A stretch of 23,475 nucleotides of DNA, from assembly GCA_016930435.1 (NCBI GenBank), contig JAFGGQ010000008.1:1-23475 (forward strand), in the 5' to 3' direction. The notes below the pieces were generated by a model. It did not search any database and was not told the DNA's origin. It saw nothing but the letters and a program-made list of their open reading frames with translations. Below, piece by piece: positions 1 to 22,692 of the stretch (position 1 is the first letter of the stretch; every line of letters starts with the position of its first letter). The translations under genes were made by a program, and so were the position numbers. Source of the DNA: a bacterium (lineage in GTDB: Bacteria; UBP14; UBA6098; JAFGQG01).

Positions 1-3000
1 GATTCGGCTGAATATTGCGGGCCAAATACCTTGTCCTCACCGGTATGCTGTGATTTCTTCGTTGATTATGAGTTCCCGCAGGTTACCATTCTCGTTCCCG
101 AAGAGGACGGAATGGTGACAAGTTGTGAAGACCAGGGTGTAGTTATTCTTTTTCAGGATCTCAGCGGAGTTGATTGGTCAACGGTTGACATTATGGTCGA
201 TGGCGTTCATTATAATTGCGATAGTCCCGAAGGAACCTGCCGGGGAGATACATTCTTTTTCAATCCCCCGCCCGGCATCTATGATGATTGTGAATGGATC
301 GATTTTGCCGTGGTCTCCGCTGCTGATGTCTTGGGAAATGCGATAACCGGAGTGACCATCGTGAGATCCTTCCTCACTGATTTTTCGGGCCCCTATGTTT
401 TCCTGGATATTGACAGCCCGGTACCCGTGCCGGGAGGGCCTCCGGTTTCGCCTATTGGATTGACAGCTCAGGTTGCCCTGGTGGATGAATGCAGTGAAGT
501 TGATCCCATGACCATCAGGGTCCAGGTGTGTAATCTAAACAGCGGAATCTGTGATACCTTCACAGTCGCTGATCCTGCTTTATCCTGGTTCGGAAGCGGT
601 CCTGCTGACCCGGGATGGATCTATCTTGAATTTGTTTACGCTCCCGGATTCATAATGAATGACCAGGATACCATCGAAATTTGCGTGCTCAATGCCGGAG
701 ACAACGCCACAAGCTGCCTACCCAATGCTATGGAAGAACCCTATTGCTGGAGATTTTATATAGATGCCCTGGGACCTCAGGCAGATATGATATATCCACT
801 GGAAGGTCAGGTTACTACCTGCAATTGTCAGAATCTAAAGATTTTATTGGAAGACCCCGCAGGAGTGAATGAGGGCACTATAGAACTGGAGGTTGACGGG
901 ACTGTTTACTCCATGCTTGACGGGGAATTGTTCTTTGTGGATGGACCATTGATCGATACCCTTTTCTTTATATGCGGTCCATCTACGCCCAGGAACACCG
1001 AAGCGTGCGACACCATTCTGGTTCGCCTGCTTTCCGCCATCGATAGCCTTGGAAATAATATCCCTGATATATATAGCTGGCAGTTCATTATGGACCATGA
1101 GGGACCTTACATTGAAGATTTTTCGCCGGTTTGCGGCTCAGCAGATACCTCAGGTTCACCTCAGATCCGCATTGCCATACGTGACGATTGCGGATATACA
1201 TGCCCTACTGAAACCGAACTGGTTATCGAATTAGTCAAGATAGATCCCCCTTCCACATTCATCGATACACTTTACTGGGGAACTCCGGGATTGAACTGGG
1301 CCACCGGAAATCCAGGTACCCTCCTTGTAGATATCGGTTCGGTGCCGGGTATGCCCCGCTTTGAAGACCTGGATACTATCTTTTTCTGCCTCCTGGATAT
1401 AGCCGACAGCGCTGATATTGTTGATTGTTACTTTAACCACCTGGAGGACAGCGCTTGCTGCTGGTTCAACAGAAGCTCTGCCGGCCCAACCGCAAACCTT
1501 CTGGACCCCGCCGCAGGAGCCTGCATATCATGCGAAGATATATGCATACTATTAGAAGTATATGACCGGGATGGTGTCGATGCCAGTACCATTGTTTTTG
1601 AATTTGAAGGCGAAATATTTACCATCGCAAGTTCGGAATTGTCTTATGATCCCGAGACGGAAACCCTTCGGTTCTGTCCTTCCCGTGATTTTTCAGTATG
1701 TGATGAAGTAGAGTTTTGTCTTTTAGAAGCCAACGATATGTTAGGTACGCCAATGGCCTCAAGGTTTTGCAGGGATTTCAGGGTTGACCTGAGACCACCA
1801 GCTTACTCCAATCCCAGGCCAACACCGGGGATAATCCTGGAATCCACCATCCCCATGATCAGGATCAACGTACAGGATACCTGTTGCGGAGTGCGAATGT
1901 CAAGCCTTTGCTTTACAATAACCACACCAAGCTGGACGGACACATATTGCGCCTCCGATGTTGATGATTCCAGTGTTTACTGGGTGGGAGATGTTGCTAC
2001 ATGGAACCCGGTATTGGCCACCCCTCCAAGGAGTTTTAACGGCGGCGATAGTGTCGAGATTTGTATGCAGGTTACTGATGCTACAAACCCGCTATGGTGC
2101 CCCTCAAACCTGACCGAATACTGCTGGCATTTCTTTATCGCCAGCGGAGCTCCTGTCGCTTATCCCATATTCCCCACACCCGGATTGATCACCGCCTGTC
2201 CCTCTGTCGAACAGATTATTATATCGGTCAGGGATACCAATGGAGTCGTTCCCGAATCCCTTATATTAGCCATTTACAGCGATTGTCTTACAGACACTTT
2301 CCACTTCCCGGATGCCACCCTGAGCTTCGATAATGATACACTCCGCTTTACCCCGCCAATACCCCTGGACGGCGCTTGTGAGTGTACGGTTACCGTAAAA
2401 CTCCTGCAAACCGCCGATGTTCTTAATAACCTGGGTTCCATGTCCCCATTCTCATTTGTGATCGACCACTCGGCACCGGAAATTATGACTGCCATCCCCT
2501 GTGATGAAATCATTTCCACTATCAGTCCCGTGCTTGGATGGACCGTCCAAGACCGCTGCTCATCAGTGGATGATAACTCATTCTGGGTTACAATAGAGAA
2601 GGATATGGTTGTGGATACCTTCCGGATTTGGACTGCGGATTATATCTATTTTGACTGGAGACCCAGTGAAAATCAACTGTTTTTCTCCAGCTGGGATGAC
2701 TCGCTTGGCGGAGCTGACAGCCTCTATTACTGCCTTTATGTCTCAGACCTGGTAGATACCTGTGATGCTAATGAAGCGGATACCTGCTGCTGGATCCGAA
2801 TCGCTGGAGGGGGACCGGTAGTGAGCTTATTAGCCCCTGCTGAAAGTCTGCATTATGGCGAAAGCTGCTTGCCCCTCCAATTTAACTTTGTAGTTTTTGA
2901 TTCCAACGGAGTGGATGCCCCCTCTATTGAGATCCTGGTAACATATTGCGGCTCTGTTGATACAAGCTTTGTATATTCCGATCCCGAGGTTGTTTTCTCC

Positions 3001-6000
3001 GCTGGTTCACTGCTGACTTTCACACCCAACCTTCCTTTCTGTGATTGCGATACCATTCTGATCGTTATTGACCAGGCTTATGATGTTCTGGGAAATCCGG
3101 TTCAATTGAACATGTTTTCCTTTATTATTGATCTGCAGCCGCCAGTTGTTACTCAACTGGAGCCCTATTATTCCCCAAGCTCTGTGGACAGCGTGAACAA
3201 TCAGGCTCCTGAGATCCGCTGGCTTATACAGGATGCGTGTGCTGGCATAGACTCATTCTGCCCGGAAGCCCATGCGTTCAATACCAGTCGAACCAGTGAA
3301 TCATTCTTCAATTGGGATGATGGCGTTTTCAGTTGGGAAGGGGATACCCTGGTACTTAGTCTTATTAGGGGAGCTTTTATCCTTTCCAGGGATGATACTC
3401 TTCACGTATGCCTTACCAATATGTGCGATAATACCGATAGCTGCTCAAATCCGATTGTTTATGATTCAGTTTCTTTCTGCTGGTGGTGGATCATAGCCCA
3501 GGGCGGGCCTATCTGTATGCTGGACAGTGCTTATTCTAATCTGCAGGAGATCTGCAACGACGATTGTATCCGTTTTATCATTCATGATGATGACGGAGTG
3601 GACACTACAACTGTGGAAGTAACCGTCAATGATATTCCCTATAGAATTGGTGATCCGGGGATTGCTTGGCGTCAACCAGATACTGTTATCGTTTGCCCTA
3701 CACCACTCTGGAATACTGAGATAGTTACTATAGGGGCATCTGCTGCCGAAGATACCGTAGGCTTAGCTATGGCCTCACCCTGCGAATGGACATTCTATGT
3801 GGATCTCAACGGGCCCGTCGGAAATTATCTGGGCCCATGGGTAATGCCATATCAACCAGTTTGCAGCTTGTTTATCTGGGATTATGATCATCCCGATTCA
3901 GGCTATCCGATGAACCCTGTCGATTCTACCACTATTGTGGTCAGCGTAAATGGAATGCTCTACTACGTTGATGGGGCAAGGGATTCGGTCATCCCCTCGG
4001 ATACCGATACGCTGGTTTATATCCGCAGTGAAAGTTTGCTTGTTTATAATGCGGTAGCTGCCGGCGATACATTCATTGCCGGCGACAGCATTACTATTTG
4101 TATTGACAGCGCCTACGATTTTACCGGCTGCATTCCCGCAAACTTCCTCGAAGATACTTACTGCTGGACATTTACTATTAATATCGGCGATGGCCCCCGA
4201 GCTTTTCTGGAATTCCCAGAATATGCAGGAGCAACCATCGCCTGTGATACCTTGTTTTATATTACCCTGAGAGTCTATGACCCGGATTATATCCTGGTTG
4301 ATAGTACCAAGATTCGGGTTGCCAGCCCTGGTATGGACACCGTTTTTGTTTGGGGAGATCCCCAGATTGAATTCATAAGTGATATAGCAGGCACACTTTT
4401 TACGGTCTATGTTGATCCAACTTTATTTCTTCTTGCCGATGATGATTACCTTATAGTTGAAGTAGTAAAGCTGCTGGACGGCCTGGGTAATCCTTATGCG
4501 CCGCCGCTTAGCGTCAGGTTCTATATTGACTACGCATCTCCATTCCTTAATTCCTCCTATCCTACTGAAATGCAGGTTATTCCTGAACCAGACCCTGTGA
4601 TATGGCTGGAATTGCTGGACGATTCCAGTTCTGTAAATTGCAGCACCACAATAATTTCAATCAATGGCGATACAATCGCCTGGGGCGACTCGAATATGTG
4701 GTGGAATGATGATACCCTCTATTATAATACCGGAGAATCCTTTGAGTTCAGGGGCGGCGACACTATTGAATTTTGCCTGATCGATATTGCCGATATACCG
4801 TATCTATGTTCACCCAATCATCTGCCAGCGGACACTTGCTGGTATTTCATTATTGGTACCGGAGGCCCTTTTGCGGAGATCATTCGGCCCGATTCCAACA
4901 GTGTGACAGCGTGCAGTCTCCAGCAAGTTATTGTAACCATAACCGATACTATACCGGGTGGAATCCGCGAATCAACAATAGTTATGGTGATAGATGGCGA
5001 GACAATCAATTACGGTGATCCACGATTTACATGGATACCCGCAGGAACCCTCTACTATGATCCGGTGGAGCCTTTCTCTAACGGTGACACCATCTGCGTT
5101 CAGTTGGTTTCTGCTATGGATAGCGCTTTCAATCCACTGGAAAATCCCCTTGATTGGTGCTTTGTGGTTGATCTCACACCACCATTGGCAGATACATATT
5201 CCCCGCTTCCGGATACCGCTATCCTGAATTGGGAACAGGAAGTATGCCTGAGAATCTATGATGAAGTCAGTACACTGAATGATACCCTCTTTTACTTTAC
5301 AGTATATGGTAACCTATATACGCTTGATTCAGCAGCGCTTAGCTGGGATTCCGCCAGCTCGGTTCTCTGTTTTGATCCTTTGCTCGCAGATACTGCCTGG
5401 ACCGAATTCGAGACCATCGATATAGAAGTCTGGGCTTGTGATATGGCTACTTACTGCCCCCCAAACTGCACCACTTTCAGCTGGTCATTCACCATCGGAG
5501 ATGATGACACACTGCCTCCTGATTGCGCCTTCTTCCCATGCACTACCTATGCTGAAAGTACCTTCATCATTACCGTAGTATTCGATGATACGTCAGGGAT
5601 TTTCGATGATGATACGGATACCACAGGTCAGGGTATCTTCCTGATCTATGATCTGGATGGCACGGTGGATTTCGCCACCGGTGACTACGCTCAGATTATG
5701 CAGATGGAATTACAAGCCGATGGAGTTACAGCAATCAGTGGACCACTTGGAGGCTTTGCCGAAACTGATACTTTTGTATATATGATCAGGGTATGCGATA
5801 ACGACTTCGATTTCTCCAACAGTAGAGACCGTTCATGTACTTTCTGCGGTCCCGGCAGTTGCACTATAGTTAATAATGAACCTCCTCAATGGATGATAAT
5901 TTCACCGGAAGATGAATCCTATTACTCCTGCTGTCCACCCGAAGTTCAGGAAATTATAGTCTGGATATACGACCCTAATGGGATTCGTGAAAGCAGTTGC

Positions 6001-6825
6001 ACGCTAATGGTTAATGACAGCGTATATGTGTCAGGTGTTGATGCTGATCTGTCTTATGACCGTGTTTCCAATTACCTGATATTCAACCCAGGAGAACCCT
6101 GGATGAACGGTGATACCCTATGTTGTCTTCTCTACGGAGTTGAAGATAACTTCGGTAATGCTCTCAGGGATACGCTTAACTGGTGCTTTATTGTGGACTG
6201 CTCTTCCCCTGTAGTATTCCAGGTTACTCCCCCAGAAAGCGCCTTTGTGCTCCTGGAAGAGATTGAAGATGTACGCATCCACATGGAGGATTCACTCTGC
6301 GGTATCGAAAGGGATTCACTGATTTTCAGGGTTGTGGTAGGCGAAGAGCAGTGGGAGTTCATCGGATTGAACCCGCTATATTTCGAGAGGGATACCCTGG
6401 TTTTCCCATTGCCTATGTCCGGAGTGGTTTACGATAGGGGGGATACCCTTGAATTTACGTTGCTCCAGCTATGCGACTGCGCCGAGGGGTGCGGGGCAAA
6501 TTGTATCTCCGATTCGGTCTATTGGTGGGTATTTATCAAACCCATCACCGATTGCAGTGTTAATCCAAATCCTTTCACTCCTAATGGTGATGGATATAAT
6601 GATGAAACTTCATTTGATTATCCCAAGCGTTTTGACCGGGATGCGGAAATTGAAATCTATGATATAAAAGGTATCCATATCCGGACCCTTAAGCCGGATC
6701 ATTTCCGTTATATCTGGGATGGCACCGACAAGAATGGCCGGGATTGCCGTCAAGGCACTTATGTATATGTAGTTAAGGCCGAAGGCAAGGAGGTTTGTAG
6801 CGGTACTGTAATTTTAGCACGATAA
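1..6825 (+). CDS. Giant secreted modular protein with type-9-like C-terminal sorting domain (5' partial)
   Basis: The reading frame is open from the first base, and its first residues (AEYCGPN, then VCCDFFVDY) match the end of a repeat module, so the gene starts upstream; the TTG at 31 is not the real start. At least 2274 residues are visible. About 19 beta-sandwich (Ig-like) modules of roughly 100-125 residues fill codons up to 6549. They carry motifs such as D-x-x-GV-x-x-ST-I, LGN and C-x-PN...yCW-x-F, and each ends in (G/P)P. The last ~91 residues (6550-6825) form a sorting-type domain: NPFTPNGDGYND, IYDIKG, WDGTDKNG, GTYVYV, ending GTVILAR. This resembles the CHU_C/type B CTD of type 9 cargo such as SprB, with FlgD-Ig-like features. 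Cysteine is abundant (about 100 by hand count) and lysine is nearly absent before the CTD. It is first in the visible operon, 71 nt ahead of a similar protein. A surface adhesin or structural role is inferred; no enzyme domain was recognised. Confidence 0.9.
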   Translation, partial: DSAEYCGPNTLSSPVCCDFFVDYEFPQVTILVPEEDGMVTSCEDQGVVILFQDLSGVDWSTVDIMVDGVHYNCDSPEGTCRGDTFFFNPPPGIYDDCEWIDFAVVSAADVLGNAITGVTIVRSFLTDFSGPYVFLDIDSPVPVPGGPPVSPIGLTAQVALVDECSEVDPMTIRVQVCNLNSGICDTFTVADPALSWFGSGPADPGWIYLEFVYAPGFIMNDQDTIEICVLNAGDNATSCLPNAMEEPYCWRFYIDALGPQADMIYPLEGQVTTCNCQNLKILLEDPAGVNEGTIELEVDGTVYSMLDGELFFVDGPLIDTLFFICGPSTPRNTEACDTILVRLLSAIDSLGNNIPDIYSWQFIMDHEGPYIEDFSPVCGSADTSGSPQIRIAIRDDCGYTCPTETELVIELVKIDPPSTFIDTLYWGTPGLNWATGNPGTLLVDIGSVPGMPRFEDLDTIFFCLLDIADSADIVDCYFNHLEDSACCWFNRSSAGPTANLLDPAAGACISCEDICILLEVYDRDGVDASTIVFEFEGEIFTIASSELSYDPETETLRFCPSRDFSVCDEVEFCLLEANDMLGTPMASRFCRDFRVDLRPPAYSNPRPTPGIILESTIPMIRINVQDTCCGVRMSSLCFTITTPSWTDTYCASDVDDSSVYWVGDVATWNPVLATPPRSFNGGDSVEICMQVTDATNPLWCPSNLTEYCWHFFIASGAPVAYPIFPTPGLITACPSVEQIIISVRDTNGVVPESLILAIYSDCLTDTFHFPDATLSFDNDTLRFTPPIPLDGACECTVTVKLLQTADVLNNLGSMSPFSFVIDHSAPEIMTAIPCDEIISTISPVLGWTVQDRCSSVDDNSFWVTIEKDMVVDTFRIWTADYIYFDWRPSENQLFFSSWDDSLGGADSLYYCLYVSDLVDTCDANEADTCCWIRIAGGGPVVSLLAPAESLHYGESCLPLQFNFVVFDSNGVDAPSIEILVTYCGSVDTSFVYSDPEVVFSAGSLLTFTPNLPFCDCDTILIVIDQAYDVLGNPVQLNMFSFIIDLQPPVVTQLEPYYSPSSVDSVNNQAPEIRWLIQDACAGIDSFCPEAHAFNTSRTSESFFNWDDGVFSWEGDTLVLSLIRGAFILSRDDTLHVCLTNMCDNTDSCSNPIVYDSVSFCWWWIIAQGGPICMLDSAYSNLQEICNDDCIRFIIHDDDGVDTTTVEVTVNDIPYRIGDPGIAWRQPDTVIVCPTPLWNTEIVTIGASAAEDTVGLAMASPCEWTFYVDLNGPVGNYLGPWVMPYQPVCSLFIWDYDHPDSGYPMNPVDSTTIVVSVNGMLYYVDGARDSVIPSDTDTLVYIRSESLLVYNAVAAGDTFIAGDSITICIDSAYDFTGCIPANFLEDTYCWTFTINIGDGPRAFLEFPEYAGATIACDTLFYITLRVYDPDYILVDSTKIRVASPGMDTVFVWGDPQIEFISDIAGTLFTVYVDPTLFLLADDDYLIVEVVKLLDGLGNPYAPPLSVRFYIDYASPFLNSSYPTEMQVIPEPDPVIWLELLDDSSSVNCSTTIISINGDTIAWGDSNMWWNDDTLYYNTGESFEFRGGDTIEFCLIDIADIPYLCSPNHLPADTCWYFIIGTGGPFAEIIRPDSNSVTACSLQQVIVTITDTIPGGIRESTIVMVIDGETINYGDPRFTWIPAGTLYYDPVEPFSNGDTICVQLVSAMDSAFNPLENPLDWCFVVDLTPPLADTYSPLPDTAILNWEQEVCLRIYDEVSTLNDTLFYFTVYGNLYTLDSAALSWDSASSVLCFDPLLADTAWTEFETIDIEVWACDMATYCPPNCTTFSWSFTIGDDDTLPPDCAFFPCTTYAESTFIITVVFDDTSGIFDDDTDTTGQGIFLIYDLDGTVDFATGDYAQIMQMELQADGVTAISGPLGGFAETDTFVYMIRVCDNDFDFSNSRDRSCTFCGPGSCTIVNNEPPQWMIISPEDESYYSCCPPEVQEIIVWIYDPNGIRESSCTLMVNDSVYVSGVDADLSYDRVSNYLIFNPGEPWMNGDTLCCLLYGVEDNFGNALRDTLNWCFIVDCSSPVVFQVTPPESAFVLLEEIEDVRIHMEDSLCGIERDSLIFRVVVGEEQWEFIGLNPLYFERDTLVFPLPMSGVVYDRGDTLEFTLLQLCDCAEGCGANCISDSVYWWVFIKPITDCSVNPNPFTPNGDGYNDETSFDYPKRFDRDAEIEIYDIKGIHIRTLKPDHFRYIWDGTDKNGRDCRQGTYVYVVKAEGKEVCSGTVILAR
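82..6549 (+). repeat. Protein-level array of about 19 alternating A/B beta-sandwich modules
   Basis: The coding region is a tandem array of diverged modules; no DNA-level repeat is obvious. Type A modules open with a cysteine about 10-20 residues before a D-x-x-G-(V/I) motif (TSCEDQ, TTCNC, ISCED, TACPS, IACDT, TACSL). They contain (A/D)-x-LGN and end F-x-(I/V)D-x-x-(G/P)P. Type B modules carry D-x-C-S/G near the start, then gGD-(T/S)-(I/V)-E-x-C, a C-x-PN motif and yCW-x-F, and end in GGP. The order is A,B,A,B through eight pairs, then one divergent module at 5521-5889, then a final A,B pair before the sorting domain. Boundaries were placed by eye on the (G/P)P junctions. Confidence 0.82.
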
Positions 6826-6829
6826 ATAT

Positions 6830-6855
6830 TCCCATAGAATGGGCTTCTATTGGGA
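6830..6855 (+). other. Intercistronic RNA hairpin between the two giant-protein genes
   Basis: TCCCATAGAA and TTCTATTGGGA can pair as a 10-bp stem with one bulged T around a five-base loop (TGGGC), starting five bases after the stop codon of the first gene. No T-run follows (the next bases are GGGTGG), so it does not look like an intrinsic terminator. It could protect the upstream mRNA 3' end or mark a processing site that sets the ratio of the two proteins. That role is inference. Confidence 0.45.
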
Positions 6856-6884
6856 GGGTGGACCAGGTAAAAGTACTCTAAATA

Positions 6885-6890
6885 GGGAGG
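6885..6890 (+). promoter_or_regulatory. Ribosome binding site fixing a TTG start
   Basis: GGGAGG lies 6 nt upstream of TTG at 6897. The TTG is in frame with a clear signal peptide, and no ATG or GTG codon lies between it and the hydrophobic core, so this site decides the start of the second giant gene. Confidence 0.7.
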
Positions 6891-6896
6891 TGTACT

Positions 6897-9800
6897 TTGC
6901 TTGGCTCTACTATATTTGTTCAACAACGAGGGAAGGGGTTCCCTCTCCGGAGAGAGAATATTAAGGCTGGAGTGTGGCTTGCAGCATTGCTTATGCTATT
7001 GTATTGTACTGCTCTGTTTCCCCAGACAGGACGTAAGGCATTGCTTAATCCATTCCGGGGAAATAAGATTTCTGTTCAAAATGAGGAGATCAGAATTACT
7101 GTCTCCGATGAGGACGGCCGCTTCACTATTGGAACGGTATCCGGGAAACCGCTGCTTTTTGGTTATCCCGCCGAAGGAGCAACATCTCACACAAATTTCA
7201 ATATTGATGGGGATATCTGGTGTAATATAAGTAACCCGGGATCCCATCCCCCTGAAATGACTATGGTTACTGCTCCGGCGGAGGTTGATGGCTCGATTAT
7301 TTGCCGCTGGAGGGAAGGGGATATTCGCATTACCCAAAGGTTAACTCCCACCGAAATTGGAGGATTATCGGTAATCCTGATCGAATACACCGCTGTAAAT
7401 CTGGGTATCCATCCTCACCAGGTAGGTTTCCTGTTGTTTATGGATACTATGATCAACAGGAATGATTATGCTCCCATTGCAACTCAGTATGGCTATTTTG
7501 CAGTAGAACGCGAATTCTCCGCGCCTACTATACCCCTGTACTGGCAGGCATTCGAGGAAGACCCATTCCAACCACCCGAAATGCTCATCGGAGAGGGAAT
7601 TCTATATGGCGGAGAAGCAGTAATGCCTGATAATCTGGTTTATGGGGATTATTGGGGTTATTCGCGGGTTGAATGGGATTATACCGTCTCCGGTACTCCA
7701 TATACGGATAGCTCTGTACTTTTACGATGGGAGCTTCAGACCCTGCTCCCAGGCGCTGAAAGACGTGTTGGAACTTACTATGGAAAGGGCACATCGGCAA
7801 CTACTATTGGGATTCTATCCTTATCTCTTACAGCACCGGATGCTCTGCTCTTTACCGAATGCGATGAACTCTCACCAAACCCTTTTGTGATTAACCTCTT
7901 CATCGCCAGCACAATGCTGGATATAGTCGAAGATGCTTACGCAATATTGGATATGCCACCCATTTTTGTGGCCGGTGATCCAATTTCGATAGTCGATCCT
8001 CCTATCCTCTATTCGGGCGCAACCGGGCTGGCTACATGGGAGGTCGGAATTATAGAGCCGGCACCTGTAGATACAATCATACATTACCGGATCAGGGTGA
8101 TCATTCCGGAGACCGATACTTTCACCATTATAGACTCAATTTATATTCCCAGTAACGATTACAGGGCTCCCAATTATGAAATATTAAGCCCTGAGGCCGG
8201 CCAGGTTTATAGTTGCGATTCATTACTTATATCAATATTTCTCAATGATCCTGACGGGATAAATTTAGAAAGTTTCCTGTTTAATCTGGGAAGCAGATCT
8301 TTCGCCATCAGCGACCTCAGACACCATATTTATAGTCATGGCTCGTTGAACGGCTATGTTCATACCTCTGATTTTTTGGATGGACGCCTGAATTTTAACC
8401 TGGAGATCAGCGATCTTCGGGGATGCCATACCGCTTCACCGGTGCAAGACCTTTCACTTGACCGCGAGCCTCCAAGGATAGTCCGGACTACTCCCTCCGA
8501 ACATGGAGTGGTAACCGGAAGCTCGTTTACAGTTCGGGTCGATTTTGATGATGAGCACGGTATCAACACCGATTCATTGCTTATCGTGATTCAGGACTCT
8601 ATCATGCTGACTGCGGCTTCTTGGGGAGTATCAATGGAAGGTGAAGAGCTTTCAATACAGGGCAGCATTTTTACAGCTATTTCCACTTCACTGGACACTA
8701 TTGAAGTCTGCTTGCACAAGGTTATGGACAATGTTTCAAGGTGTTCCTATAACCGCAGATATCTGCCCTATTGCTGGAGTTTTATTGTGGATAATCAACC
8801 TCCTCAAGTGGAAGTGATAGACCCTGTACCCGGCTCATATCTGAGTTGCCCGGAGTTAAACTCCAGGGTAATTGTCCGACACCCCCTGGGCATACTTGCC
8901 TCCTCGATCAGCCTGGAAGTAAATGAAAGGAGATACAGTATATATTCACCGGAACTTTCATTATCAGGGGATACATTGCTTATTAATCTTCCTGATTATC
9001 ATCTTGCAGAGGGAGTCCTGCAGTTCGATTTAAACCTCGAGGATGTACATGGTTCGGGCCTTCCTGAACCCTGTAACTGGCAATATACACTGGATTGGAA
9101 TGCTCCTCGGATCGAACCGAGGAATCCCGGTTCACATTCCGTGATCTCCAATCCCTGGGACAGTGTCATTGTAGTTATAGAAGATACTCTTAGCGGGGTA
9201 GATTTAAGTACTTTGGAGCTTAGTATTTCTTCAGGCGTCTTTTCATTACTTTTTGAGCCTGGCGATGAAGGTATATACTTTATAGACAATGTATTATTCC
9301 TGGTGCCTGAAGAGGCAGGATTCCGATGGCCCGGAAGAGATACAATTACTATAGCAGTAAATGCTTGCGACATGGCTGGTTACTGTGACCCCAATTGCTC
9401 CCCGACTAACCAATGGAGTTTTTACACTCCCGGTCAGGGGCCTGTAGCCGAAAGTATAACCTCCTCATTATTGAGAAATATCTCATGTGATAACCTGATT
9501 TTTAAATGGTTCGTTGAGGACGAGGAGGGAATAGAATACCATTCGGTTTCTGTAAATATCGGCTCACTCTATACGATAAGTTACGGAGAGGATGGGATAG
9601 AATGGAGAGGGGATACACTTGTTGTAGGGTATCCTGCGGAATTTTTACCACAGGGTGAATTGCTGCATGCCAGAATCGCCTCATTAGATGACCTGTTCCT
9701 TAATCCTTTATACTCCGCTGAGGAGATAATATTTTCTCTGGACAATACTCCTCCTCTGATAGAATACCTTTCGCCTGGAGCAGATAGCTATGTGGAAACC

Positions 9801-12245
9801 ATCTACCCGACCTTGATACTGGAAGTTAGTGATGAACACTCAGATATTGACCCACTCCTCACTCATTTAGAAGTAAATGGGATTGCAATAGGCGAGGATG
9901 TTGAATTCGAAAGGGAAGGGGATAACCTGATAATAGACCTGGCATATTACGCTTCCCTTTTAACACTGGAATGGGGTGATACGGTAGAATTATGCCTTCA
10001 CCTGTTCGATAAAGCTGTAGAATGTGAACCGAACCGAAATGATACGTGCTGGTCTATATATATACAGGAATCCGGTTCAGAAATCTGCCTGGTTTCCCCG
10101 GATAATGGTTCATCTTATGCATGCGATATGTTGGAAATTGAGATCTATATGAGTGATCCTGAAGGCATCAACGGGGAGAGCATAATATTTAGATTCGGTG
10201 ACATGCTCTACACTATTAGCGATACTGAACTGGATTATACCGGGAACTTGCTGCATTTTTGGTTGGCCAGTGTTATTGGATTATACGATACGGTCTATTT
10301 TGGAATTGAGGAGGCTATTGATAGCATGGGATTCCCATTATACTTGCCATTAGAACACTGGTCAGTGGTTTTGGATTGGAATGCTCCAAGGGTCTCTGAT
10401 ATCGAGCCTGCTGCGGGTTCACAGCTTGATTTCGATGCTCCACAGGTGATAATGCAGCTTGAAGATGAAAGTGGGATTTCTTCAAATAGATGCGTAATAT
10501 GGGTAAATGGAACTGAATATGATATGACCTCAGGACTGCTTGAATATTCTGAACCGAATCTTTATTTCAACATAAGGGATATACAGGGAGAACTTGCTGA
10601 GACCAACCAGGTTTGCCTGTCGATCCGGGATGATCCGGACTACTGCTTTAATGAGAACTATGAATGCTGGCAATACATCTTTGTAAATAACCCTCCATCA
10701 TTAAACCTGATCTATCCGCCAGAACATTCTATTATTAGTTGTGAAGAAAGCTTTATAAAAATTGCGATTATGGATGAACAAGGTATTTACCCTGAAAGCC
10801 TGAATATCAAACTAAGCGGAAATGATATTTGCTATGAGGATGGGTACTTTGAAATATTGGGAGATACTGTTCTCCTCCAATACAATCGTGATATTATCCT
10901 GGAAGGGCCATGTAATATTGAATGCTCCAATTTATATGATTCGTCCGGGCTGGCTAGTTCACAGAATTTTAGCTGGGAGATTACCTTTGATTTTTCCCCG
11001 CCTCAGCTTAGTGGAGTCTGGCCACCAGAAGAGATGGACATTACACCTGACCTGGAACTTATTAAAGTATTATTGTACGATTCATATTCTTTTATAAATT
11101 GGGATCATTTTTTACTATCTATTAACTTTAATAATGTTATATTTGATGACAGTTTGTTTTATTTTGAGGCGGACACCCTTGTTTTCAAAATAGGGGAGGT
11201 CAACCCAGCGTTCTTTGATAATCAGAGACTTGATGTTTGTATAAAAGTCAGGGATAATCCCAACTATTGTTCAGCCAATGAGACTACCTATTGCTGGAAT
11301 TATTCAATTGCTCAGGATGCTCCCCGAATACAGATAATCGAACCATTGAACAATACCATCACTCATCAGCCTTACCAGCAGATCAAGGTTAAGGTGTGGG
11401 ATAAGGATGGGCTGGATACCGGAACAATGCTCTTTATCGTTCAGGAGAACCGGCGAACCTTTGATAATTTTAATTATGAGTATGTTCAGGAAGAATCCTT
11501 GATGGTTTACAGCCCTTCAATACCCTGGGTTGATTTCAAGCGGTATGACGTTTCCTTTATCGCTTCCGATATTTATGGAAACCAGTCCGGACCGGTATTG
11601 TGGTCCTTTTATACCGATTATACAGGGCCCGTCGCATCTGAACCTGAACCGGGCTTAGGGGATGTCCATAGTGGAATCCTTGAACAAATAACGCTAAATC
11701 TGTCAGATTATAGGAGCGGAGTGGACATAAATAGCCTTATATTGAAAGTAGATGAGATTCTCTACAGCTATCCGCATCCGGCTTTACAATGGGACGGCTA
11801 TACTCTGTATTTTCTCACCGAATATTCAGACCAGCAATGGATCGCACCTGATACTGTATGGGTCAGCCTGGAATCAATTTATGATAAAACTCCGGATTAC
11901 GGAACACCAAATTTCCTTGACAATTCACCGTTTGAATGGTATTTTTTCATGCAATTAAAAGATTGTTGGATTTATCCGGAGCCATTCACTCCAAATGACG
12001 ATGGATACAATGATCAAGTGAGTTTTAACTTTAAGGAGAGTTATTCCAATAACGCCCTAATTCACATTTACGATCTAAAGGGGAAAGAAATCAAGAGTAT
12101 CTCTTCCTCCGACAGGATTGGCGGAGAATGGTTTTGGGATGGTAGAGATAGTAGAGGAAACGAATTATCCCCGGGCGTTTATATTTACTCTATTATAATT
12201 AATGGCAAGACGGTATATAACGGTTCGATAACTTTAGCTAGGTAA
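6897..12245 (+). CDS. Giant secreted modular protein with N-terminal unknown domain and type-9-like C-terminal sorting domain
   Basis: The 1782-residue protein starts at TTG behind GGGAGG. Residues 1-43 are a signal peptide with a long basic n-region (R11, K13, R18, R19, K23) and core VWLAALLMLLYCTAL. LLYC is not a proper lipobox, so signal peptidase I cleavage is likelier. Residues ~55-420 form a beta-rich region with no modules, which I do not recognise. Residues ~424-1688 hold twelve modules in six A/B pairs of the same two types as in the upstream protein. Residues ~1689-1782 are the sorting domain: DCWIYPEPFTPNDDGYND, IYDLKGKEI, WFWDGRDSRG, GVYIYSI, ending GSITLAR. The domain aligns end to end with that of the upstream protein, including the DC at its start. 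It sits 23 nt upstream of a PorV-OmpA gene, in one operon. It is probably exported to the cell surface by a type-9-like route. Binding partner and function are unknown. Confidence 0.93.
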   Translation: MLGSTIFVQQRGKGFPLRRENIKAGVWLAALLMLLYCTALFPQTGRKALLNPFRGNKISVQNEEIRITVSDEDGRFTIGTVSGKPLLFGYPAEGATSHTNFNIDGDIWCNISNPGSHPPEMTMVTAPAEVDGSIICRWREGDIRITQRLTPTEIGGLSVILIEYTAVNLGIHPHQVGFLLFMDTMINRNDYAPIATQYGYFAVEREFSAPTIPLYWQAFEEDPFQPPEMLIGEGILYGGEAVMPDNLVYGDYWGYSRVEWDYTVSGTPYTDSSVLLRWELQTLLPGAERRVGTYYGKGTSATTIGILSLSLTAPDALLFTECDELSPNPFVINLFIASTMLDIVEDAYAILDMPPIFVAGDPISIVDPPILYSGATGLATWEVGIIEPAPVDTIIHYRIRVIIPETDTFTIIDSIYIPSNDYRAPNYEILSPEAGQVYSCDSLLISIFLNDPDGINLESFLFNLGSRSFAISDLRHHIYSHGSLNGYVHTSDFLDGRLNFNLEISDLRGCHTASPVQDLSLDREPPRIVRTTPSEHGVVTGSSFTVRVDFDDEHGINTDSLLIVIQDSIMLTAASWGVSMEGEELSIQGSIFTAISTSLDTIEVCLHKVMDNVSRCSYNRRYLPYCWSFIVDNQPPQVEVIDPVPGSYLSCPELNSRVIVRHPLGILASSISLEVNERRYSIYSPELSLSGDTLLINLPDYHLAEGVLQFDLNLEDVHGSGLPEPCNWQYTLDWNAPRIEPRNPGSHSVISNPWDSVIVVIEDTLSGVDLSTLELSISSGVFSLLFEPGDEGIYFIDNVLFLVPEEAGFRWPGRDTITIAVNACDMAGYCDPNCSPTNQWSFYTPGQGPVAESITSSLLRNISCDNLIFKWFVEDEEGIEYHSVSVNIGSLYTISYGEDGIEWRGDTLVVGYPAEFLPQGELLHARIASLDDLFLNPLYSAEEIIFSLDNTPPLIEYLSPGADSYVETIYPTLILEVSDEHSDIDPLLTHLEVNGIAIGEDVEFEREGDNLIIDLAYYASLLTLEWGDTVELCLHLFDKAVECEPNRNDTCWSIYIQESGSEICLVSPDNGSSYACDMLEIEIYMSDPEGINGESIIFRFGDMLYTISDTELDYTGNLLHFWLASVIGLYDTVYFGIEEAIDSMGFPLYLPLEHWSVVLDWNAPRVSDIEPAAGSQLDFDAPQVIMQLEDESGISSNRCVIWVNGTEYDMTSGLLEYSEPNLYFNIRDIQGELAETNQVCLSIRDDPDYCFNENYECWQYIFVNNPPSLNLIYPPEHSIISCEESFIKIAIMDEQGIYPESLNIKLSGNDICYEDGYFEILGDTVLLQYNRDIILEGPCNIECSNLYDSSGLASSQNFSWEITFDFSPPQLSGVWPPEEMDITPDLELIKVLLYDSYSFINWDHFLLSINFNNVIFDDSLFYFEADTLVFKIGEVNPAFFDNQRLDVCIKVRDNPNYCSANETTYCWNYSIAQDAPRIQIIEPLNNTITHQPYQQIKVKVWDKDGLDTGTMLFIVQENRRTFDNFNYEYVQEESLMVYSPSIPWVDFKRYDVSFIASDIYGNQSGPVLWSFYTDYTGPVASEPEPGLGDVHSGILEQITLNLSDYRSGVDINSLILKVDEILYSYPHPALQWDGYTLYFLTEYSDQQWIAPDTVWVSLESIYDKTPDYGTPNFLDNSPFEWYFFMQLKDCWIYPEPFTPNDDGYNDQVSFNFKESYSNNALIHIYDLKGKEIKSISSSDRIGGEWFWDGRDSRGNELSPGVYIYSIIINGKTVYNGSITLAR
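8166..11960 (+). repeat. Protein-level array of twelve alternating A/B modules
   Basis: Six A/B pairs can be delimited by eye at residues ~424, 528, 638, 738, 849, 955, 1061, 1166, 1268, 1371, 1478 and 1579, ending at 1688. Five of the six A modules carry the opening cysteine (residues 440, 651, 864, 1076, 1282) before D/H-x-x-G-I; the last A module lacks it. B modules carry the EVCL / C-x-x-N / CW triad or, in the second B module, the variant NACDMAGYC...PNC. The last B module (residues 1579-1688) has no cysteine. Modules are diverged, so recent slippage or duplication is not apparent. Confidence 0.8.
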
Positions 12246-12268
12246 TATAAATTTATTAAGGAGGCGAA

Positions 12269-15181
12269 ATGACCCGAATAAGAGGCCTTTTAATATTGGT
12301 TATACTCCTGCTTTTTTTTAGCATAGATTATGCTCAGGAAGGCGCGGAATTGGCTTTAGAGGGGGCCCGGGTTGCAGGTATGGGTGGCGCTTTTGTAGGA
12401 TTAGCTAATGATGTTCATACTATTCCATTCAATCCTGCTGGTTTGGTAGGCTATAAAAGTATGCAACTATCCGGCATATATTCACGCCGGTTCTGGGGTT
12501 TGCAGGATGGAAATGCACTGCACGAAAGCGCATTGTTGTTCTCCAGAAGACTTGGAGAGCGGTCCGCGGTTGGTATCGGAGCGTCGCAATTCTTCAACGA
12601 TAAGCTCAGAGAATCTAAATTTAGTTTGGTATATACACATAAAACCTTTCTTTTCCGGAATCCGGAGGGGTCTGAAAAGGGTTTTTTATCCTTTGCCCTG
12701 GGCGGCAATCTCTTCCGCAATGACTACAACACCGGTTCTTTTTCGGATGAATTTGATTTTGACGATCCCCTTTTTCGTGATAAGGCCGGCGCTATGGATT
12801 TCGGAGTGGATTTCTCGGGCCTGCTTAACCTCCGGAAGTTTAACTGGGGATTCAAAGTGGCTAATCTTAATCAACCCAATCCCACTATTGGAAAAGTCGA
12901 AGCAGGAAAATTGCCTATTACGATACGAACGGGGCTCTCTTATAGCTTCAGGGATATTGTGGTGCCTTCTATAGGGGTTAAGATTCCATTGGTAGCTGTA
13001 ACAGATGATAATCCACCAGTTCAGGATGACGTGGAGGTCTCTGCAGGAGCGGAGATCTGGGTCTGGAAAAAACACCTGGGCTTTCGAGGTGGTTATAATA
13101 CAAATTACTTCTCTGCCGGCTTCGGCTATTATACGCGAAGCGCTTATAACCTTGGATTCGATTATGCCTATTTGCAGAGTTTTGAAGAGGGTATTAAAAA
13201 TTCGCCTACTCATAAGGTATCGGTCTCGGTTGGATTTCCGGAACCAGAAGAACCCTATCGCGACCTTGCAGTAATAAAGGATAGCCTGAAATGCTTGCCA
13301 TCCGTGGTCCCTTACGGCACGGAATCCATTATCCAGGCGACATTCACTAATCTGGGAGGTAAGAAAGAAAAGGATGTTGCTATTTCTGCCTATGCCGTGA
13401 ACGAAGAGGGAACAATATTCAAATTGAAGGGTAAGAGTAATATATCTATCAATCCAAGGGAATATAAAAAGGTCGAATGGAAATGGATACCTATTGAAAA
13501 AGGATATTATACTGTTTATGCTAATATTGATGACGATGGTTCAAGGGCGCCCAAGATCAAAGGGGTTATTTTCGAGGGTAGTGAAACCAATAATCAAGCG
13601 AGTTTTAGGGTTCCCAGTTTTATGCCTCCTTCTTCTGATCCTCCTCAGGTTCTGAAAGCCGAACTTGAATTATCCAGGGTCAGCTTTGTTAAGGAAGAGG
13701 TGCCTTTGATGCCTTTTATCCATTACGATGCAGGGGAATCCGGGATTCATGAGAGATTCGATGATGTTATCAATACCATAGCAGAAAGGATTAATGAGAA
13801 TCCCGATATTAATCTCCGTCTTTATGGCTTCTATGACCCGGGTACCGACGGAACTGACCGGGAAGATCTGGCTTTTGAAAGAGCGCGCATCGTGAAATCC
13901 CGTTTCGAAGAATTGGGAATTCCTTCCAATCGGTTGGAAGTGGCAAAGGATGGGTACGACCTTAGCAGGAAACGCGCTGACAAGGTTAGCAGAAAATACA
14001 CTACCAAACAGGACAGTCTTTGGGTAGCAGAAGAGAATCGCCGGCTTGAATTTAGAACTTATATTGTTGGTCAGGACTCGGTTTTAGAACATTTTGAATA
14101 TACTGTTGGCCAGCAGGAACCTTCACTCCATGAAGTGGAAAGGATTGCCGGGATGCTAACCGGGATAAAAACCCTGATGGATAAAAATCCTGAAATTGTA
14201 CTTCTTTTTGTTGGTTTATTTAGCCTTGGCGAGGAAGCAGGGTGGGATATTGCATTTGACCGTGCATTGAGTTTACGTGAAAAAGCCGTCCAGGTGCTGG
14301 GCGAGGACTATCGGGCCCGAATGTATGTTTTAGGGGCAAGAGAACCTCATACTACACCGGGAGTCTCCGTTTTTCTAAATGCTGAAGGTCTTGTTTTCAG
14401 ACCCAGAAAGGCGGCTGAGGTATCCGAAAGTTCCCAGTTGCCGGGAGAGGAAATGAACCAGATAGATATCCTGAACCTCAACGTGGAAGCTGGTGTAAAA
14501 AGCTTTCAATTGGATATCAAAGATGAGGAGGGAAATTTATTCAGTACTTTGGCTTCTGGAAATGAGATCCCCAGTGTCGTCCCCTGGAACTGGCGGGATA
14601 AAGAGGGTAATTTGCCTGATTCAAGGAAACAATACCATGCCGAGTTATTTATTGAAGACAGCGTCGGCCAGAACATTATCCTGGAGTCCAAGCGGATCAC
14701 TGTCAATGTTCTGACTGAAGAACGCCGCCGGGAACTTATAATAGTTAACTTCACTTTTGGAGGCACAAAGCCGGAATCCAAATTCCTGGAGAGCAGGATT
14801 GAAAATGCCGCCCGGGAATTTATCGATAAGGTGAATGAACCTAAACGGCAATTAACTGCATTTCTGGCTGGCCATACTGATAAGACTGGCCCCGATGAAA
14901 TAAACCAGGAACTTTCAGAAGCCCGGGCTGAAATTGAATTGCGGAACTTTCGTAAATACCTGATACATTTGTTAAACCTGAATTCTGAAGATGAACTTGA
15001 TCAGTGGTTAGGACGAAGCAATACCACCCTCGAATCAAAGGGCTATAGCTTTAAGAGGCCTTATGCAACAAGTATATGGAAGGGTGGAAGATACGAACGC
15101 CTTTTAGTAGGAAATAATAAGTATCCCGAAGGAAGATATATAAACCGGCGAGTTACCCTTGAATTCAGATGGTCCCGGTAA
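12269..15181 (+). CDS. PorV-like outer-membrane barrel fused to CARDB-like, FlgD-Ig-like and OmpA domains (paralogue 1)
   Basis: ATG follows AAGGAGG with a 4-nt gap. The 970 residues read as follows. Signal peptide 1-22, cleaved near YA|QE. PorV/UPF0164-type barrel ~25-323, with the family signature GARVAGMGGAFVGLAND and FNPAGL at 32-59. CARDB-like Ig domain ~331-448 (NLGG, W-x-W, SETNNQA). OmpA-like domain ~465-600 (D523 and R538, ENRRLEF). Degenerate OmpA-like stretch ~610-710. FlgD-Ig-like domain ~735-815 (WNWRDKEGN). OmpA domain ~823-970 with GHTDKTG, LSEARA and INRRVTLEF. D871 and R886 are 15 residues apart, like the diaminopimelate-binding pair in Acinetobacter OmpA. The gene lies 23 nt after the second giant gene. 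PorV-family barrels carry sorting-domain cargo in type 9 secretion, and OmpA domains bind peptidoglycan. A combined cargo-handling and anchoring role is inferred from the fusion and the neighbours. Confidence 0.9.
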   Translation: MTRIRGLLILVILLLFFSIDYAQEGAELALEGARVAGMGGAFVGLANDVHTIPFNPAGLVGYKSMQLSGIYSRRFWGLQDGNALHESALLFSRRLGERSAVGIGASQFFNDKLRESKFSLVYTHKTFLFRNPEGSEKGFLSFALGGNLFRNDYNTGSFSDEFDFDDPLFRDKAGAMDFGVDFSGLLNLRKFNWGFKVANLNQPNPTIGKVEAGKLPITIRTGLSYSFRDIVVPSIGVKIPLVAVTDDNPPVQDDVEVSAGAEIWVWKKHLGFRGGYNTNYFSAGFGYYTRSAYNLGFDYAYLQSFEEGIKNSPTHKVSVSVGFPEPEEPYRDLAVIKDSLKCLPSVVPYGTESIIQATFTNLGGKKEKDVAISAYAVNEEGTIFKLKGKSNISINPREYKKVEWKWIPIEKGYYTVYANIDDDGSRAPKIKGVIFEGSETNNQASFRVPSFMPPSSDPPQVLKAELELSRVSFVKEEVPLMPFIHYDAGESGIHERFDDVINTIAERINENPDINLRLYGFYDPGTDGTDREDLAFERARIVKSRFEELGIPSNRLEVAKDGYDLSRKRADKVSRKYTTKQDSLWVAEENRRLEFRTYIVGQDSVLEHFEYTVGQQEPSLHEVERIAGMLTGIKTLMDKNPEIVLLFVGLFSLGEEAGWDIAFDRALSLREKAVQVLGEDYRARMYVLGAREPHTTPGVSVFLNAEGLVFRPRKAAEVSESSQLPGEEMNQIDILNLNVEAGVKSFQLDIKDEEGNLFSTLASGNEIPSVVPWNWRDKEGNLPDSRKQYHAELFIEDSVGQNIILESKRITVNVLTEERRRELIIVNFTFGGTKPESKFLESRIENAAREFIDKVNEPKRQLTAFLAGHTDKTGPDEINQELSEARAEIELRNFRKYLIHLLNLNSEDELDQWLGRSNTTLESKGYSFKRPYATSIWKGGRYERLLVGNNKYPEGRYINRRVTLEFRWSR

Positions 15182-15201
15182 TGGAGCAGACTTGATATAC
15201 A

Positions 15202-18075
15202 ATGTTATTTAAGATCTTTACCAGAACTATATTTGTTTTTTGCATATTATTTTTTGCAGCAAATATAACCATTGCACAAACTGCACGTCCGTTGGGTTTT
15301 GCTAATGCTTTCGTGGGACTGGCCGACGATGGAAATGCCCTGTTCTTTAACCCCGCAGGTCTCCCTCTACTTGATTTCCGGGAGGTGTATGGGGGCGTCT
15401 CCAGATACTACTGGGGCTTTTCCGAAGCAAACATCATGGCAACTTCCCTCTCCTATATACATTCCACCCATAAATATGGTTGCCTGGCTGTTGCAGGCGA
15501 GCAGTTCAATCACTCTGTGCTAAGTCAATTCTCCTTTCTTCTGGGCTACGGTTACCCTCTTCTTAAAAACCACCAATGGGATATTTCGGCAGGCCTCTCA
15601 GGCGAATTCTATCGATTGCGATATAATGAAGGCGAATTTTTCCGCTTTGATTTCCAGGACCCCCTCTTTATCGAAAATGGATACTCTACTTTTGACTTCG
15701 GTCTGAATGCCGGACTCATAGCCAGATACGGGAATATTTCGGCCGGAGTTGCACTTAAAAATCTCAATCAACCCTCAGCAGGATTGGATAAAACCGATCC
15801 GGATGGGCGGAAACCCCTGGAAACTCAATTCGGATTTGCTTATAACTTCAGGGATTTTTTAACTCCCCTTATACAACTGAACTTCAACGAAATGGATAAT
15901 CTGGATTACAGTTTCGGTGTGGAGAGCTGGTTAATTGATAAGCAGTTAGCATTAAGGGCTGGATATGACAGCAAACAGAATTTGACTATGGGAGCAGGGT
16001 TTTATCTGAAAAAGATTAACCTAATCGGGATTGATTATGCGCTGACTTATTATTTAAGCGAGGTTAAATCGACTACCCACAGGTTGTCGGCCTCTGTACG
16101 CTTTCCATTACCCGCACTGGTGATACCTCCAAAAGAGTATCCGGATCTGGAGATATTGTCAAGTGATATACAATATGACTCTAAAAATGTACTTGTGGAA
16201 GAACCCTTCAATCTGAAGTTTAACATTCGGAATATTGGTGAAGCAGCGGCTGAAAATTTTTATGTTTCCTTTTTCTATAGTAGTCCGGAAAGTCTTTACC
16301 GGGGTTCTCTGGAGACCGTCCAGAAGCTGGGTGCGGGAGATGAAGTGCAGATGGTAAAGACCTGGACTCCCAGAGCTCTGGGAGAACACCAGATGGTAGT
16401 TTCTGTGGATGATGACGGGGCTCTTTATCCCGATTTGAATGGCATGATCGAGGAGAACAACGAAGTTAACAATCAGGCAGGAATAGATATCTTCGTTTAT
16501 CAGAGACCGGTAGCTGATATTAAGCTGGATAACAGCGTTCTTCCTATGATCGAAATGACCTATATAAAGGCTGAGGAACCTCTGGTCCCGGTAATATTCT
16601 TCGATCCTGATTCATCTGCGGTAAATCCCCGATTCCGGAACAGTCTAAAGGAAATTGCGCAACGATTGATCCTAAATTCCGATGTTGAAATCTACCTGTA
16701 TGGCTATATCGACCAGAATACCGATTCACAGAATTGGGAGGAGACAGGTCTGCATTTGAAACGCGCAGAAGCAGTAAAGCAAATATTGCTTAGTTATAAT
16801 GCTCCGGAGAACCGTGTATTCATTGCTCATGATGACTATGACCCCACTACAAAACGGGCAGGGAAAAGCGGTGTCTTTTATTCTGAACGGGATCGGATCT
16901 GGTCCAGTCAGGAAAACCGGAGGGTTGAATTATTAGTAAAAACCAGGGAAGATGATAAATTTATTGTAGAGAAGCAGTTCAGCGAAAGGGATACTACCTT
17001 TGACAGACAGCTTATCCAGGAATTGAACCGTTTCGCTGCAGATGTTTTACCGGTTTTAAAGTCTAATCCCGCATCCATAATCCTGGTCGAAGGATTTTCA
17101 GAAGAAGGAGAAAATTTCAGTAAGTATACTTTTTCCAGGGTAAAACAGGCCGAGGTTCAGCTTAAAAAGATGTTCGGAGATGAAGTAAGCACTGACAGGC
17201 TGAACAAGTTGATTCGCTCCGAGGAGGGAGTTACGGGAAAGCTCCAACTGTCATTGATCATGGATGGTATGATGTACACCCCGGTAGAGAACATCATGGC
17301 CGGCAAAGATGTGGAGATTCCCGAAGAGTACCGGCTAAATAAAGTAAATATCAGTTTTAGCGCTACAACCGAGATCGATACATATTTGATCACTATTGAT
17401 GAGGTACAGGGTAAAACCATTAATACTCTGGCTATGGGGGAAGGCGCGCCTCCCTCAGTTATTAACTGGGATTGGAAGGATCAGAATGGGAACATCATTG
17501 ATCCTGAAAAAAGGTACTACGCCAGATTGTATATCAGGGATAATATTGGTAACCGATATGTTTTTAAGTCCGATACAGTGGGTATAGAGGTCTCGCAGGA
17601 GTCACAAAGAATGGAATCTCTATTGATGTTCCAGTTCGTTTTTGACGAGATCCACCATGAATCGAAGTTCTTCAGTGGGAGACTGGACAAACTTACTGAT
17701 ATTATTATTGCCAAGGCTATGAAGCCTAATAATGAACTAAAGGTGAATATTATAGGTCATACCGACCAGGCCGGCACCGCAAGACATAACCAGGAATTAT
17801 CCACCGCCCGGGCGGATAATGAATTAAAGAACATCAGATTATATTTGATCAATAAATTAGGCTTTTTTAACGAAGAGCAGCTTGATGAATGGCTAAAAGA
17901 ACATCATACTGTACTGATAGCCCGGGGCGCTAGCTTTAAAGAACCACTGGCGATCGAACGCTACCGAAATGGGAAATATGAAGAGGCCCTCCTGGGTGAT
18001 AATGAAATTCCCGAAGGACGCTCAATTAACAGACGCGTAGTAATCGAATTCGAGGAGCGAAACATCAAGGAATAG
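15202..18075 (+). CDS. PorV-like outer-membrane barrel fused to CARDB-like, FlgD-Ig-like and OmpA domains (paralogue 2)
   Basis: This 957-residue paralogue has the same architecture as the gene before it. Signal peptide 1-25 (ITIA|QT). PorV-like barrel ~27-303 (GFANAFVGLADD, FFNPAGL). CARDB domain ~313-432 (NIRNIGEA, TWTP, ENNEVNNQA). OmpA-like domain ~445-580 (D504, and R521 two residues further on than usual; ENRRVELLV). Degenerate OmpA-like stretch ~590-695. FlgD-Ig-like domain ~713-795 (WDWKDQNGN). Terminal OmpA domain ~805-950 with GHTDQAG, LSTARA and INRRVVIEF, where D855 and R870 keep the 15-residue spacing. An in-frame TGA at 15193 makes ATG 15202 the first possible start. The nearest SD-like GGAG is 15 nt away, and the previous stop overlaps a four-codon mini-ORF at 15181, so translation may depend on coupling. 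It ends 20 bp from the convergent btuB-like gene; I see no terminator hairpin there. Confidence 0.9.
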   Translation: MLFKIFTRTIFVFCILFFAANITIAQTARPLGFANAFVGLADDGNALFFNPAGLPLLDFREVYGGVSRYYWGFSEANIMATSLSYIHSTHKYGCLAVAGEQFNHSVLSQFSFLLGYGYPLLKNHQWDISAGLSGEFYRLRYNEGEFFRFDFQDPLFIENGYSTFDFGLNAGLIARYGNISAGVALKNLNQPSAGLDKTDPDGRKPLETQFGFAYNFRDFLTPLIQLNFNEMDNLDYSFGVESWLIDKQLALRAGYDSKQNLTMGAGFYLKKINLIGIDYALTYYLSEVKSTTHRLSASVRFPLPALVIPPKEYPDLEILSSDIQYDSKNVLVEEPFNLKFNIRNIGEAAAENFYVSFFYSSPESLYRGSLETVQKLGAGDEVQMVKTWTPRALGEHQMVVSVDDDGALYPDLNGMIEENNEVNNQAGIDIFVYQRPVADIKLDNSVLPMIEMTYIKAEEPLVPVIFFDPDSSAVNPRFRNSLKEIAQRLILNSDVEIYLYGYIDQNTDSQNWEETGLHLKRAEAVKQILLSYNAPENRVFIAHDDYDPTTKRAGKSGVFYSERDRIWSSQENRRVELLVKTREDDKFIVEKQFSERDTTFDRQLIQELNRFAADVLPVLKSNPASIILVEGFSEEGENFSKYTFSRVKQAEVQLKKMFGDEVSTDRLNKLIRSEEGVTGKLQLSLIMDGMMYTPVENIMAGKDVEIPEEYRLNKVNISFSATTEIDTYLITIDEVQGKTINTLAMGEGAPPSVINWDWKDQNGNIIDPEKRYYARLYIRDNIGNRYVFKSDTVGIEVSQESQRMESLLMFQFVFDEIHHESKFFSGRLDKLTDIIIAKAMKPNNELKVNIIGHTDQAGTARHNQELSTARADNELKNIRLYLINKLGFFNEEQLDEWLKEHHTVLIARGASFKEPLAIERYRNGKYEEALLGDNEIPEGRSINRRVVIEFEERNIKE

Positions 18076-22652: not shown

Positions 22653-22692
22653 CAAGTTGATTTATATTAATATCAATACAGGAATCAAACCA

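Follow-up and report, generated by a model that had tools for sequence, protein, structure and literature searches.

Paired giant type B cargo genes and fused barrel-OmpA carrier genes in a UBP14 bacterium: a probable type IX secretion locus with putative wall-anchored carriers

In the type IX secretion system (T9SS) of Bacteroidota, type B cargo both requires and binds a carrier of the SprF type, either SprF or PorP (PMC9143113, PMC12618676). A complex of PorE, PorP and PG1035, in which PorE is the peptidoglycan-binding component, is a proposed connection between cargo and cell wall, and five operons of Flavobacterium johnsoniae combine PorE with a type B protein and an SprF (PMC9143113, PMC12618676). 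PorE of Porphyromonas gingivalis also carries a propeller (PMC9143113), and the C-terminal Cys-X-Cys of SprF joins that carrier to GldK (PMC12635249). Pull-downs and operon structure underlie a model proposed for Bacteroidota, in which a carrier of the PorP type and a wall binder of the PorE type jointly fix type B cargo to the cell wall.

The window, as the whole stretch of 23,475 nucleotides analysed here is called, begins at the first base of its 23475 bp contig in a bacterium of the lineage UBP14; UBA6098 (genome G000). Four plus-strand open reading frames fill bases 1-18075 in the order cargo1, cargo2, carrier1, carrier2 (Table 1), and because base 1 is the contig's first base, cargo1 is truncated at its 5' end. 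A sequence-only reading had described two genes for sorting-domain (CTD) proteins followed by two barrel-OmpA genes, and the reading frames bear this out, with 71 nt between cargo1 and cargo2, 23 nt between cargo2 and carrier1 and 20 nt between carrier1 and carrier2. Cargo2 starts at a TTG codon with a good Shine-Dalgarno match, AGGGAGGTG, four bases upstream, and its orthologue in G001 likewise starts with TTG. A simple terminator scan yielded a weak stem at 6831-6843 between the two cargo genes and is not decisive, so the case for an operon rests on spacing and conservation. Downstream and convergent with carrier2 lies a TonB-dependent receptor gene (18096-20081, minus strand), followed at 20784-23475 by a Reg_prop propeller protein and then a VIT-domain protein resembling the sortase-target and MSEP-CTERM families.

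Table 1. Positions of the genes and predicted domains of the locus in the window
Feature	Position	Strand	Basis or remark
Cargo1, giant Ig-repeat protein, N-terminus lost at contig end	1..6825	+	ORF of 2274 aa, 5'-open
Type B (CHU_C) sorting domain, cargo1	6565..6792	+	CHU_C 39.7 bits
Shine-Dalgarno-like AGGGAGGTG ahead of cargo2 TTG start	6884..6892	+	direct reading of sequence
Cargo2: Ig-like repeats and type B sorting domain behind an N-terminal domain common to cargo1 relatives	6897..12245	+	1782 aa
Type B (CHU_C / TIGR04131) sorting domain, cargo2	11973..12233	+	profile matches
Carrier1: 14-strand FadL/PorP/PorV-type barrel, CARDB, OmpA, degenerate OmpA-like, FlgD-like Ig, OmpA	12269..15181	+	970 aa
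Carrier1 barrel, 14 strands, residues 65-323	12461..13237	+	AlphaFold2 model
Carrier1 CARDB domain	13262..13600	+	Pfam score slightly under cut-off; fold resembles 3idu (Z 14.6)
Carrier1 first OmpA domain (D523, R538)	13724..13948	+	Pfam; Pal-like fold, Z about 15
Carrier1 last OmpA domain (GHTD 868-871, R886)	14789..15178	+	alignment of orthologues
Carrier2, HMM domain architecture same as carrier1	15202..18075	+	957 aa; about 29-30% identity to carrier1
Carrier2 PorP/SprF-like barrel	15307..16104	+	TIGR03519 residues 36-301; PF11751 46.6 bits
Carrier2 last OmpA domain	17707..17862	+	Pfam; D and R retained

With a probability of roughly 0.7, we read the locus as a pair of cargo/carrier units of the T9SS in which barrel and wall anchor are fused. 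Each cargo would be exported by Sec and then pass through the SprA channel by means of the type B sorting domain at its C-terminus. There a FadL-type barrel dedicated to it would receive it and remain bound to the sorting domain on the surface, and the periplasmic arm of the same protein (CARDB, OmpA, FlgD-like Ig and OmpA domains) would grip peptidoglycan. The giant Ig-repeat protein would thereby be pinned to the wall and form a surface fibre or adhesin that does not move. The roles of PorP and PorE, separate in Bacteroidota, would be merged in one chain. Since SprF-type carriers bind cargo and the PorE complex is a proposed wall link, the fused carrier is read as both parts. The analysis itself establishes gene order, domain content, a predicted fold, conservation and an SprA gene in the genome; secretion, specific pairing, peptidoglycan binding and static anchoring of the cargo by its carrier are what we infer from these. 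A wall-anchoring role for the fused OmpA domains would go beyond the sequence-only proposal.

The two cargos have CHU_C (PF13585) matches at their C-termini (39.7 bits for cargo1 and 34.8 for cargo2; cut-off 27), and TIGR04131 places cargo2 above its cut-off of 35 (37.8 bits) and cargo1 just below (34.0). Judged by these profiles, both giants end in type B T9SS sorting domains, preceded by Ig-like repeats. By eye, the N-terminus of cargo2 has a hydrophobic stretch. The C-terminal 300 residues of cargo2 were modelled as beta-sandwich domains (pLDDT 86.8), for which Foldseek put PorU (6za2) on top, the other matches being mostly generic Ig-domain proteins. Cargo1 genes in relatives encode up to 2.3-3.0 kaa, some of them cut (G001, G002, G004, G007, G008, G010, G016). 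At two loci a small protein of 148-150 aa with a lipoprotein-like N-terminus is encoded between cargo1 and cargo2 (L098:12254-12700 and L112:9054-9506); the L098 copy had no family match. With 138 matches to Por_Secre_tail and 55 to CHU_C, the window's genome as a whole encodes a T9SS secretome that is very large.

Carrier homologues, counting matches of any length, number 6-15 per genome in all 16 relatives of the same class and about 10 in the window's own genome; full-length homologues were not found in the genomes outside the class covered by the same search. A scan of a genome collection found relatives in UBP14 bacterium UBA6098, in Zixibacteria-labelled records and in a KSB1 genome. A tree of 99 carrier proteins resolves into orthogroups with conserved neighbours. 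All four families of the class share the order cargo1-cargo2-carrier1-carrier2. Seven genomes have it complete (G000, G001, G002, G004, G007, G008, G010), the contig of G016 stops behind carrier1, and that of G014 begins inside cargo2. A MurI gene, recognised by eye, lies upstream of cargo1 in G004, G007, G008 and G016, and a histidine-phosphatase-like gene lies downstream of carrier2 in G008 and G014, the G003 copy of which matches His_Phos_1.

Cargo-carrier adjacency is conserved and non-random, in keeping with the sequence-only expectation that cargo and barrel genes co-occur in related genomes. Across the class, a cargo with a type B CTD stands directly upstream of 42 of the 86 carriers with a visible upstream gene; such a CTD occurs in 10 of 376 comparison genes more than two genes away, a difference whose Fisher p of 4e-26 is to be taken as descriptive, because the related genomes are not independent, the CTD profile was built from the CTDs of the same cargos and one of the 42 matches is weak (19.6 bits). 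In all 12 loci where the gene upstream of a carrier1 orthologue is visible, that gene is a type B cargo; several further carrier orthogroups also sit behind type B cargos, and for one carrier (G009:C11:15776) the CTD cargo is the next gene downstream, with a 17 nt overlap. Another carrier is the upstream neighbour of 9 of the 86, and in the carrier2 orthogroup that neighbour is carrier1 in most loci. The upstream gene is unrelated in 27 of the 86, RlpA-, PilO- and HemN-linked groups among them, and divergent in 8, which argues that the carrier family also has other roles.

Some of these other neighbourhoods are themselves recurrent. At L166:1719-6414 (G002:C36) a carrier-OmpA gene comes immediately after a gene that looks PilO-like by eye, and this arrangement is also present in G000:C155, G004:C16, G007:C1, G008:C115 and G014:C375; the PilO-like gene had no family match, and in L166 it is preceded by a PilM-like gene (TIGR01175, 35.9 bits, below cut-off). 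The genes expected at the position behind PilO are pilP and pilQ. Another carrier-OmpA orthogroup lies beside RlpA, a septal peptidoglycan protein, at L024:7349-10980 (G000:C56) and in G001:C130, G004:C16 and G007:C19; the L024 RlpA scores 168 bits with TIGR00413.

Reduced forms of the locus bear on which carrier might serve which cargo. In G003, G006 and G012 the order is MurI, carrier2, phosphatase and a single giant cargo, which measures 3.8-4.0 kaa in the first two genomes and is partial in G012; cargo2 and carrier1 are both missing there. Cargos and carriers at the locus thus number 2:2 or 1:1, as would be expected if every cargo had its own carrier, and these counts, with the joint absence of carrier1 and cargo2, suggest a nested pairing of cargo2 with carrier1 and cargo1 with carrier2. 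In G003 and G006 the N-terminal domain seen in cargo1 is missing from the lone giant, whose CTD clusters with a different orthogroup; this giant is thus not identified as cargo1, and the reduced loci do not prove the partner of carrier2. Co-divergence of cargo and barrel, a check proposed in the sequence-only reading, gives a hint at most, as it covers seven genomes, which are too few: divergence of the cargo1 CTD correlates best with that of the barrel in carrier2 (r 0.88, against 0.79 with the one in carrier1), and the cargo2 CTD has no preference overall (0.74-0.78 with carrier1, 0.70-0.78 with carrier2).

Full-length barrel-OmpA fusions are also often encoded in genomes of the KSB1 group. 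Where an upstream gene is visible, 37 of 38 follow a cargo with a T9SS-type C-terminus, as scored by a KSB1 CTD profile that three of the 38 had seeded, and 36 of these 37 pairs lie within 129 nt, many with overlapping ends. Two KSB1 barrels were classified, with PorV/PorQ scores of 119 and 89 bits (cut-off 90). Of three KSB1 cargo CTDs, one scores above the threshold for type A. In Bacteroidota PorV is paired with type A and PorP with type B, so that the PorV-like/type-A-like combination of KSB1 and the PorP_SprF/type B combination of the UBP14 class parallel the Bacteroidota pairing. In 38 of 41 KSB1 fusions (e.g. L169) the aspartate of the GHTD motif in the last OmpA domain is replaced by cysteine, a substitution that weighs against our reading; it is the only strongly conserved cysteine of these proteins and could possibly be the site of a covalent link. 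One KSB1 fusion of 1400 aa (L168:4076-8278) ends in a Reg_prop propeller, a kind of module that PorE of P. gingivalis also has, placing carrier, OmpA and propeller in one chain.

The barrels might instead be general outer-membrane factors of the T9SS that handle many cargos, their adjacency to cargo genes a product of history or co-expression. The CHU_C and Por_Secre_tail matches of the genome do far outnumber its carriers, and a shuttle of F. johnsoniae serves several orphan type B cargos (PMC12618676), but we consider this explanation unlikely, as the same carrier orthogroup is linked to type B cargo across families, loci are 2:2 or 1:1 with carrier1 and cargo2 absent together, and the linkage appears again in KSB1. 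The sequence-only suggestion that the locus may be a self-contained display system is not supported: 55 CHU_C matches stand against about 10 carriers, several carrier orthogroups have no cargo neighbour, most CTD proteins are unlinked to a carrier, and SprA lies on another contig. The SprA-type translocon that was to be sought elsewhere in the genome is encoded there by a 1927-aa ORF (G000:C77) at 661.6 bits, against a cut-off of 200. Nearly every genome of the class has SprA, as do 30 of 30 genomes of the KSB1 group. Of the two outcomes that were to refute the sequence-only proposal, giant and barrel genes never adjacent or no SprA-type translocon, neither was seen.

The nature of the carriers is indicated by their domains and by the modelled fold. 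The barrel had been assigned to a family different from SprF, an assignment that the profiles do not establish: Pfam PorP_SprF (PF11751; cut-off 22.3) matches carrier1 at 49.8 and carrier2 at 46.6 bits, above cut-off, and T9SS_PorP_fam (TIGR03519; 53.3 and 48.9 bits, cut-off 90.55) and PorV_fam (NCBIfam; 57.7 and 49.9 bits, cut-off 90) both remain below theirs. Pfam further finds OmpA (PF00691, two stretches), CARDB and a weak FlgD_ig in both carriers, CARDB in carrier1 being just under cut-off; among the Pfam and NCBIfam models matched, none describes the fused protein as a whole, and TPR and beta-propeller domains are absent from both carriers. An AlphaFold2 model of carrier1 (pLDDT 81.2, from an alignment of 18 sequences) has, in order, 14 strands forming a FadL-type barrel and then CARDB, OmpA, OmpA-like, FlgD-like Ig and OmpA domains, named from Pfam matches and by eye. 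Searching solved structures with the barrel sequence by itself gave no useful match. The best PDB match of the model is PorV of the SprA translocon (chain 8gl6_F, Foldseek E 2.6e-11), on which the barrel superposes with Z 32.4 and rmsd 2.9 over 280 residues; the fold matches belong to the FadL family.

This family resemblance has a second possible meaning, namely that the barrel-OmpA proteins are outer-membrane-to-wall tethers or accessory factors of the BAM type and do not receive cargo. The Bacteroidota BAM includes a FadL-family barrel, BamG (PMC12611786), the carrier barrel matches BAM FadL-family chains at Z 26.3-27.6, and some carrier orthogroups have no cargo neighbours. Set against this are the better scores with PorV (Z 32.4 and 31.6), the above-cut-off match to PF11751 and the strong enrichment beside CTD cargos in two phyla, which together make the tether or BAM explanation very unlikely.

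For the wall-binding end of the predicted cargo/carrier units, the peptidoglycan-contact residues of the last OmpA domain are retained almost throughout the class sequences (D871 in 91 of 92, R886 in 92 of 92), and among 12 carrier1 orthologues neither the GHTD motif nor R886 varies. All 17 genomes searched also encode a standalone PorE-like protein, the best at about 170-309 bits and below the cut-off of 600, so that the fused carriers probably supplement PorE with private anchors rather than replace it. One match to the PorE model (G000:C137:17495-18820, with similar proteins in other genomes of the class), below cut-off, does not include the N-terminal TPR part.

The motor proteins PorL/GldL and PorM/GldM had no match in 21 genomes, with models that matched in no control genome; GldM had none in 30 KSB1 genomes, its model again matching in no control genome; and the ring protein PorK/GldK gave partial matches far below cut-off, of a kind that also occurs in genomes without a known T9SS, and none in G004, G007 and G009. 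A role in gliding, with the giants as adhesins and the carriers as counterparts of SprF that travel along a track, is highly improbable: giant Ig proteins with a type B CTD do adjoin an SprF-family barrel gene, but the Cys-X-Cys that joins SprF to GldK is found in 0 of 99 class carriers, the carrier has a predicted wall-binding domain fused to it, and the gliding motor models had no match beyond the partial GldK ones, with no positive control for GldM and GldL. A wider reading, tentative and somewhat doubtful, is that a family of wall-bound carriers exists outside Bacteroidota, where it spans two phyla or more, with the type of carrier matched to the type of sorting domain and with SprA operating without the canonical PorL/PorM motor. 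Outward transport would then need another energy source, possibly retention of the cargo by the wall-bound carrier, and the question is raised of what powers an SprA system in which the usual motor proteins went undetected.

Among known systems, the closest solved fold to the window barrel is that of PorV in the SprA-PorV translocon (PDB 6h3i, 8gl6), but PorV carries no OmpA arm and handles a wide range of type A cargos. BamG shares with the window barrel its 14-strand FadL-family architecture within an outer-membrane machine; it has the lower structural score and belongs to a barrel-assembly machine, whereas the carriers are linked to CTD cargo genes. SprB/SprF of F. johnsoniae likewise combines a giant type B CTD cargo with an adjacent gene for a PorP/SprF-family barrel; the window differs in having two cargos and two carriers in one locus, and its carriers bear a long arm with OmpA domains and lack the CXC motif. 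No description of a barrel-OmpA fusion was found in the open-licence papers searched. The parts themselves, a type B cargo, a PorP-type carrier and a peptidoglycan-binding OmpA module, are those of PG1035-PorP-PorE in P. gingivalis and of the PorE operons of F. johnsoniae (e.g. Fjoh_3952-3951-3950), but carrier and wall module are separate there and fused here, and the TPR and propeller of PorE are absent from the window carriers. Carrier-per-cargo display would extend to lineages outside Bacteroidota, and a natural fusion of both parts beside a cargo gene provides independent evidence for the wall-pinning model, of which the fused carrier would be a one-protein version that is open to test.
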